This document shows, in pieces, positions 40,859 through 42,716 of a DNA stretch of 64,000 nucleotides. The DNA comes from Haloarcula halophila (GTDB taxonomy: Archaea > Halobacteriota > Halobacteria > Halobacteriales > Haloarculaceae), in NCBI RefSeq assembly GCF_029278565.1, contig NZ_CP119559.1, forward strand, positions 1-64,000, in the 5' to 3' direction. Position 1 is the stretch's first letter. Each line of letters starts with the position of its first letter. Below the pieces are notes generated by a model. It had not been told where the DNA came from, searched no databases, and was given only the letters and a program-made list of their open reading frames with translations. The position numbers were made by a program, and so were the translations under genes.

Positions 40859-41617
40859 TCACACTGCGTCACGTTCGGTTTTGATCTGGTCGACGTACGT
40901 CTCAACGACATTCTTGATAATCACCTCTCCTGCCTCAGCGGTTGCTTGTGTCGGATCGCCAAGGACACCGTTCTCGGTGATTGATTCGAATCCCTCACTC
41001 AAGAGACGAGCTGGCGAGATATCGCCTTCGGGTCCGGACTCAATGGCCTCTGCTCTGACGAGGTCCTGATCGATGGCCATCACCATCGCGGTTTCGGCAG
41101 CGCCAGCGTGGATCACGTCCTGATCGTACTCGATACCTGCATCGCTAAGCCCCTCGTTCAGTAAGTTCATGTGTTCGTCAAGGTCAGCAAGCGGAATTAC
41201 CGTTGCGTTAAGTTCGCGGGCGATGTCGGGAGCGACGGTCTTGACCGGTCCGAAGTTCCCACCATGAGTCGGAATAAGGACGATGTATTCGAAGCCATGT
41301 TCATCGAGAGATCGGCAGTACGTCCGGATCACGTTCATGAGTGTCTCCGGTGGAACGGTGATCGTACCGGGGAACTCCATGTGATGGCCTGAACAGCCAG
41401 GGCGAATCGTCGGGGCTGCGAGGGCATCACCCAGTTCTGTCGCAATTCGACGTGAGATCTCGTCCCCGTCCAGTGTATCCATATTCAACGGGAGGTGTGG
41501 ACCGTGTTGTTCAATCGAACCCACGGCTACGATTGCCGTCCGGGATCCATCTTCAATAGCGGACTCGACTTCTGGCCAGACCATCTCCTCAAGACATACT
41601 GATTCGCGAGAAGGCAT
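40859..41617 (-). CDS. creatininase family amidohydrolase
   Basis: A binuclear metal hydrolase of 252 residues. Metal ligands are in VGSIEQHGPHLPL (Glu, His), MDTLDGD (Asp), THGGNFG (His) and the Glu strand AGAAETAMV. Related enzymes act on creatinine or on formamide/lactam groups in cofactor biosynthesis (MftE-like), so the substrate is not settled. Its neighbourhood is accessory. Start ATG at 41615-41617. Confidence 0.85.
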   Translation of the reverse strand: MPSRESVCLEEMVWPEVESAIEDGSRTAIVAVGSIEQHGPHLPLNMDTLDGDEISRRIATELGDALAAPTIRPGCSGHHMEFPGTITVPPETLMNVIRTYCRSLDEHGFEYIVLIPTHGGNFGPVKTVAPDIARELNATVIPLADLDEHMNLLNEGLSDAGIEYDQDVIHAGAAETAMVMAIDQDLVRAEAIESGPEGDISPARLLSEGFESITENGVLGDPTQATAEAGEVIIKNVVETYVDQIKTERDAV

Positions 41618-41740: not shown

Positions 41741-41760
41741 TGTTAGGCCACACCCTAACA
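41741..41760. promoter_or_regulatory. palindromic operator site 1 (TGTTAG-N8-CTAACA)
   Basis: TGTTAGGCCACACCCTAACA has perfect 6-bp arms. A second copy with the same arms starts 27 nt later. Both lie just before the TumE-like gene at 41795. Likely regulator sites. Confidence 0.65.
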
Positions 41761-41767
41761 CTCCAAC

Positions 41768-41787
41768 TGTTAGGGAACACACTAACA
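41768..41787. promoter_or_regulatory. palindromic operator site 2 (TGTTAG-N8-CTAACA)
   Basis: TGTTAGGGAACACACTAACA has perfect 6-bp arms identical to site 1, and ends 7 nt before the ATG at 41795. The spacing of 27 nt start to start places the two sites on similar faces of the helix (about 2.5 turns apart). Confidence 0.65.
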
Positions 41788-41794
41788 AACATCG

Positions 41795-42074
41795 ATGGCC
41801 GATGATGTCGAGGTGCTCGAAGACGAGATTCAGGCCTACGACGATGGCACCGTCGTTCGGATACGCATCCTCGATGTGCCGGCCTCGGAGCAGTATCCCG
41901 AGGGCAAGTACGCCTTCCACTACGGCGAAGCCGGCGCAGACGACCACATCATCCGCTTCGACAACCACCACGCACGAGCTGCACATCGGTGGCCAGGTCT
42001 TCGAACTCGAGTTCTCGGGTGACGTTGGACTCTGTGGCCTCGAGTCGGGCAGCGATGTCGAGGCTGCACCCTGA
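41795..42074 (+). pseudogene. TumE-like toxin relic (TumA-TumE toxin-antitoxin family)
   Basis: The first 60 residues follow the TumE/DUF6516 pattern: EDEIQAYDDGTVVRIRILDV, SEQYPEGKYAFHYGEAG and IIRFDNHH. After HH the frame shifts; the other frame continues ELHIGGQVFELEF, then diverges from the family. A residue also seems lost in the usual YPEGVKY. The usual partner, a TumA helix-turn-helix antitoxin downstream, is missing. I read it as a broken toxin gene whose operator survives. Start ATG at 41795. Confidence 0.55.
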
Positions 42075-42176: not shown

Positions 42177-42716
42177 ATGGGTGGCAGAAGTCGTGGTGCG
42201 TCGTCGGTAATCGGGGTACTGTTACTGGTTGGTGTGACCGTCATCGTGGCAGGGCTGCTCTCCGTGTTCGCACTCCAGATCGGTGATTCAGCCACGCGGT
42301 CCGCGCCGACAGCTGAGTTCGAGGTCGATACCTGTACTGATTGTGGAAGCCTGGCGCTCGCCGACGATCCCAGTCGGAGTGGAACGACGAACTTCCTGAA
42401 TATCACGTTCACCCACGGTGAGACACTCGACGCCGAGAACGTAGCTGTCTACTTGGAGGGACAAATCCTGTTCGACCCGTCGAAGACAGGGAGTGCGGCG
42501 TATTACCAGCCTGCCAATTACGATGGCGCCGCCAGCAACGATCTTCGCTGGTCGAGCGACCAAATCGCGGCCGGTGAACAACTGATTCTCGAAGACGATG
42601 CGGATGCCAGTGCTACGGAGCCAGTGTTCCGGGAGGGGCAAGTCGTCCGTGTCGTCTGGACACAACCCGATACCGGCGAGTCGTATACGCTGGTCAAGCG
42701 GACGCTCAGATACTAA
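42177..42716 (+). CDS. type IV pilin-like protein
   Basis: A secreted pilin subunit of 179 residues. The N-terminus MGGRSRGASSVIGVLLLVGVT matches the PibD signal (RGAS-SVIG) plus the hydrophobic filament helix. The rest is strand-rich with a CTDC pair (DTCTDCGSLAL). A TTTTAT element at about 42147-42152 lies about 26 nt upstream of this ATG, supporting a leaderless start here rather than the ATG at 42129. The gene stands alone in the island; pilins often vary between strains for adhesion or virus evasion. Confidence 0.72.
   Translation: MGGRSRGASSVIGVLLLVGVTVIVAGLLSVFALQIGDSATRSAPTAEFEVDTCTDCGSLALADDPSRSGTTNFLNITFTHGETLDAENVAVYLEGQILFDPSKTGSAAYYQPANYDGAASNDLRWSSDQIAAGEQLILEDDADASATEPVFREGQVVRVVWTQPDTGESYTLVKRTLRY

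Follow-up and report, generated by a model that had tools for sequence, protein, structure and literature searches.

Twin palindromes before a broken tumE gene of Haloarcula halophila: the probable control region of a wrecked toxin-antitoxin operon

Two palindromes with identical arms stand in front of a damaged gene in the window (the whole stretch of DNA analysed, 64,000 nucleotides from Haloarcula halophila, positions 1 to 64,000 of contig NZ_CP119559.1), and the locus raises the question of what this pair once controlled and whether anything encoded in the same genome can still read it. The preliminary description reported TGTTAG-N8-CTAACA twice, 27 nt apart and ending 7 nt before an ATG, and both copies were found exact at these places (Table 1): they lie 27 nt apart from start to start, the 7 nt at 41788-41794 separate the proximal copy from the ATG at 41795, and 100 shuffles of the window gave a mean of 0.00 matches to the palindrome. 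Its reading of the twin as an operator typical of an autoregulated toxin-antitoxin promoter gains ground from the recurrence of the element before intact TumE-TumA modules, where TumA is the putative ligand.

The explanation favoured here, with considerable confidence, is that the locus is the wreck of a TumE-TumA operon whose control region survives. The intact operon has the gene of the toxin TumE in front and that of the winged-helix antitoxin TumA behind it; a TumA dimer would occupy each palindrome, the two sites standing on either side of the core promoter from which a nearly leaderless transcript would start, and an excess of antitoxin would shut that transcript off. In the lineage of the window the toxin gene has gone out of frame, and about 440 nt have been deleted, probably by way of short direct repeats, so that mid-tumE now adjoins the end of tumA and the DNA-binding domain of TumA is gone. 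The operator probably persists by inertia, no reader of the same class having been found in its own genome.

Table 1. Features of the relic and of its control region, in window coordinates
Feature	Position	Strand	Description and basis
Distal palindrome, TGTTAG-N8-CTAACA	41741..41760	+	Putative TumA operator; same element 25-86 nt before the first TumE-profile residue in 36 of 41 palindrome-fetched loci
Spacer between palindromes, 7 nt	41761..41767	+	Candidate place of the core promoter (TATA-like), altered in the relic
Proximal palindrome, TGTTAG-N8-CTAACA	41768..41787	+	Putative TumA operator; 7 nt upstream of the ATG; twin at 27 nt in 21 of 51 modules
Front part of tumE	41795..42002	+	Lacks one codon and its rear; frame break at about 41972; Pfam match and alignments to relatives
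End of tumA (last ~20 codons), fused to the tumE remnant	42003..42074	+	DNA-binding domain deleted, about 440 nt missing

Remains of the two genes

The frame that opens at the ATG matches Pfam TumE (PF20126) with an E-value of 8.7e-8 and 32.5 bits, above the cut-off of 23.4, over profile positions 3-48 of 81. By this score the remnant belongs to a TumE-family toxin; the locus no longer holds an intact two-gene module and is a relic. Alignment with intact relatives shows three losses in the window: one codon, a short stretch at about 41972 whose absence breaks the frame, and about 440 nt between mid-tumE and the end of tumA. The fusion of the TumE and TumA parts spans more than one frame. The broken toxin frame of the preliminary description is thereby borne out, although the break lies slightly downstream of the position near 41960 given there. 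Its statement that no TumA follows holds for a whole TumA, but the end of the gene survives. In the genome search this tail is a weak match (TumA residues 113-135, 65% identity, E 0.195); when it is anchored at the stop codon at 42074, it shares 44-47 of its 72 nt with every one of four relatives, and for each of the four none of 10000 codon shuffles did as well.

In one relative, L044, the ends of the stretch that is missing from the window share an 8-nt repeat, which makes slippage or recombination between short repeats a likely origin of the deletion. The remaining 59 tumE codons have a dN/dS of 0.06-0.08 against relatives where it was computable, intact genes among themselves having 0.03-0.07, and these ratios are rough given the high dS. 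As the remnant resembles intact genes in this respect, the breakage is taken to be recent, and since so little of the remnant has decayed, the perfect palindromes need no selection to account for them.

Some care is required in reading this assembly. Positions 1-51987 of the window are repeated at C1:2986676-3038664 with 99.92% identity (8 mismatches plus 32 gap positions, often in homopolymers), and contig C1 is an untrimmed circular, long-read-like assembly in which gene copy numbers and single frameshifts need caution. A second pair of palindromes, at C1:3028429, was discarded as the same locus re-read through this overlap. Given that the assembly has indels, as the disagreements between the two readings of 52 kb demonstrate, it might be supposed that the module is intact in the strain and only appears broken through faulty sequencing or assembly. 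However, this is very improbable for two reasons: first, the two readings are identical between 41723 and 44609, though reads may be shared between them. Second, homopolymer errors do not produce a gap of this size, about 440 nt, with a matching TumA tail at its end. An identical 20-mer at C2:14733 and C2:481756, and equal-scoring matches at C3:7181 and C3:305056, suggest that contigs C2 and C3 are also untrimmed circles.

Recurrence and geometry of the palindrome

The exact palindrome was sought in 392 genomes of the order and is present in 41 of them, that of H. halophila included; all 41 loci outside its own genome were fetched. The sites total about 53 and those of a reversed control pattern about 36, so frequency alone says little and the case for an operator rests on position. 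At 36 of the 41 fetched loci a TumE gene or remnant lies 25-86 nt behind the palindrome, followed by a TumA gene or remnant, and the other five (L047, L048, L056, L057 and L058) have neither TumE nor TumA behind it. TumA follows TumE at all 36 and is intact in 33 by a mechanical test. The same test, which L067 passes in spite of a seemingly shifted front frame, finds 21 loci with two intact genes, 12 at which damage is confined to the toxin and three with damage to toxin and antitoxin alike; at no locus is the antitoxin alone broken. This is one-way decay of the kind expected. Broken TumE with intact TumA is frequent among L041-L069 and L130-L141. The preliminary description would have been contradicted by a palindrome both unique in its genome and absent before intact TumE genes: it is unique there, but it is found before the 21 modules in which both genes are intact.

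A second set of 72 loci was fetched through TumE, 30 by Pfam score and 42 by similarity to seven TumE proteins of palindrome loci, and the removal of three duplicate upstreams left 69 that are distinct. Where the TumA of these loci carries a recognition helix of the PPEV type, the palindrome is present with at most one mismatch in 31 of 33 (26 exact); among the other 36 it occurs once, before a module whose TumA is too broken for class assignment. The element stands in the same place before intact modules, as an autoregulatory operator would. In a wider survey of 74 upstream regions (the 72 TumE-fetched loci, the window and one module of the H. halophila genome), inverted 6-mers peak at a spacer of 8, found in 38 regions with about 3 expected, spacers of 6, 7 and 9 being found in 20-23.

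When both fetching routes are pooled there are 51 distinct modules of the same class, of which 21 have two sites, 28 have one and two have none, and in all 21 with two sites the twin spacing is exactly 27 nt. The suggestion that the pair is a chance repeat with no regulatory role would accommodate the five palindrome loci without TumE and the fact that the reversed control occurs too, but the place of TumE at the 36 other loci and the invariable spacing of the twins leave it barely credible here, and for the family as a whole it is largely refuted.

TTAT occurs between the twins in 14 of the 21 modules and behind the single site in 17 of 28. Seven twin spacers lack it; in L046 and L049, which are the nearest relatives and belong to these seven, CTCAT stands in its place. 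In every one of the 21 twins the fourth base of the spacer is A or T and the fifth is T; the window has C and A there, with its arms unchanged. Reckoned back from the ATG, the spacer falls about 28-34 nt upstream, which is where leaderless haloarchaeal transcripts would be expected to have their TATA box. It is suggested from this coincidence that the core promoter is situated between the palindromes, and given that the spacer occupies the expected place of the TATA box, TumA bound to both sites would cover the promoter.

TumA and the half-site classes

The TumA of relatives is a winged-helix protein, two intact examples matching Pfam HVO_A0114 (PF25212) at E 4.3e-29 and 3.1e-29, and a partner gene with a DNA-binding domain therefore adjoins TumE in these modules. 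The window keeps only the tail behind that domain, and Pfam states no function for the family. The AlphaFold model of TumA has a mean pLDDT of 78.6, with block means above 90 for residues 51-100, and a helix at residues 80-92. Its best neighbours in the PDB are winged-helix repressors of the ArsR/SmtB type, with MarR-type proteins further down; the best of these matches has an E-value of 2.2e-3 and a TM-score of 0.43 on the query, and none has an E-value of 0.001 or better, which indicates a resemblance of fold and not membership.

In an alignment of 30 TumA proteins, read together with the AlphaFold model, the residues that define classes fall on the recognition helix. Helices with PPEV accompany TGTTAG half-sites, those with DVHxVH accompany TGTTGG(G) at a spacer of 9 and those with DVRQVH accompany TGTTGT, while KNVST goes with TGATGG or TGTTGG and KNVH with YATTGG or CGTTGG. 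The class motif fits 67 of 87 loci, against a mean of 30 and a maximum of 43 in 5000 label shuffles, a test that ignores kinship and in which the motifs were chosen on the same data and loci fetched by palindrome were included. The 20 misses comprise 10 of 19 DVHxVH loci, 7 of 51 PPEV loci and 3 of 11 DVRQVH loci.

Predictions were fixed beforehand and then compared with 60 loci fetched by two TumA proteins; 39 of these were new once 15 with no TumE found upstream, one with a repeated upstream and five previously in the set had been left out. YATTGG is present with at most one mismatch in 21 of the 23 new loci of the KNVH class (the misses being L216 and L227), and as these were gathered by likeness to one TumA, the agreement speaks for conservation more than for independent origin. 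A finer rule, also written in advance, was borne out in part. The strict DIKNVH prediction failed at the sole new locus to which it applied, L227, the other new loci being mostly DVKNVH; the DVKNVST prediction fitted at L171 and L176; and the DIKNVST prediction fitted at one of three loci (L175), L179 having TGTTGG and L185 having no site. From the new loci it seemed, post hoc, that the residues after the motif (AL as against AV or AI) matter more than the choice between I and V. An association of the half-site with the recognition helix of TumA is claimed at the level of the class only, and given that the half-site appears to track the helix class in these comparisons, TumA is the likely reader of the palindromes. 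A TumA with an insertion of several residues in the recognition-helix region was observed at L053:748-1179, and the palindrome before its TumE is unchanged.

TumE is described as DUF6516 (PF20126) of the TumE-TumA superfamily in the text seen of Durairaj et al. 2023 (PMC10584680), where TumE lies mostly behind its partner (clusters 1, 2, 4 and 6) and six gammaproteobacterial pairs were tested. The toxin remnant of the window passes the Pfam cut-off for that family and its relatives share with the superfamily a two-gene layout with a DNA-binding partner, but in the haloarchaeal modules, unlike those in that part of the paper, TumE precedes its partner, a winged-helix protein of the HVO_A0114 family. 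No report on the operators of haloarchaeal TumE-TumA and no paper mentioning HVO_A0114 by name were found in the open-licence literature, and within that literature the operator code is apparently undescribed. The relic itself is ordinary, and the interest lies in this code. A puzzling pair of palindromes can be assigned, as operator, to a toxin-antitoxin family for which, in the text seen of PMC10584680, there is bench work on bacterial pairs; the match between antitoxin helix and DNA half-site is simple and open to test in archaea, and through it the relic leads to the operator system used by a young family of toxin-antitoxin modules.

The orphaned site in its own genome

A scan of the H. 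halophila genome with up to two mismatches returned 26 sites, four of which are both palindromes read twice, and the reversed control pattern returned 47; no further operator stands out above this control, and the idea of a regulon was set aside as unsupported. A regulator encoded elsewhere in the genome, which the preliminary description had suggested might read the site, also fails to appear. Pfam HVO_A0114 has 17 matches in the genome, of which four exceed the cut-off: two proteins on contig C3 and two others that score lower, at 46.8 and 28.2 bits. The two on C3 are the closest TumA-like proteins, both 35% identical to the class of the window, and each has a recognition helix of another class, its own TumE and other half-sites. 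The PPEV-type helix is absent from the 12 matches with loci among the 17 listed, and of the TumA-like proteins examined for the helix at C1:2669079 and C1:2641693, neither matched in helix class or in partner. No TumA of the same class was found in the genome.

The C3 proteins belong to two divergent TumE-TumA-like modules, L070 (at about 157.5 kb) and L071 (at about 288 kb), which were missed by the Pfam TumE model at E 0.001 and caught by a profile built in this analysis. Both have paired palindromes around a TTAT-bearing spacer, one with a TATTGG/CATTGG twin and the other with CGTTGG and an imperfect second copy, and the genome thus holds three half-site types, one of them orphaned. On balance, it is proposed that haloarchaeal TumE-TumA modules have one layout, in which two inverted sites, each about 20 bp long, flank the core promoter, and several insulated specificities set by the recognition helix of TumA, which would allow several modules per cell without cross-talk.

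Given that both palindromes are perfect despite the broken gene, they might be a live switch kept by another regulator in the genome, serving for example the archaeal type IV pilin gene (Pfam Pilin_N, 42177-42716) that lies directly behind the relic or the creatininase gene, which is divergently oriented and has its start at 41617. This is quite improbable, since no further sites exceed the control, the nearest TumA-like proteins differ in helix and half-site, and the scarcely decayed remnant allows perfect arms to stand without selection. Furthermore, the creatininase gene does not adjoin a relic or a pilin in other members of the genus. Its search matched 13 of 32 genomes, including that of H. 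halophila and two weak 47-nt matches, and the gene aligns in the 10 others, in nine at 76-81% identity and in one at 68%; within 1.5 kb on either side of it, no adjoining relic (DNA search) or pilin (protein search) was found in these 10 congeners. An empty site could not be drawn from them, both being absent beside the creatininase.

Plasmids, which the preliminary description had named as a place to look for the antitoxin, do carry relatives of TumA, but in other haloarchaea: of 72,556 records in a public collection 88 have a TumA relative, and 13 of these have one at 60-80% identity, the best being 78.5%. This raises the possibility that the relic is still in use, either through a functional fusion frame or transcript or with the operator acting as a decoy for a plasmid-borne TumA. 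Such use is exceedingly improbable, as the fusion does not run in a single frame, the spacer has lost bases that are invariant in the 21 relatives with twins, and the genome yielded no TumA of the same class. The wreck of a TumE-TumA operon, with its operator orphaned in place, is preferred over these alternatives. The chromosomal place of the module agrees in L046 (G375) and L088 (Haloarcula rara).
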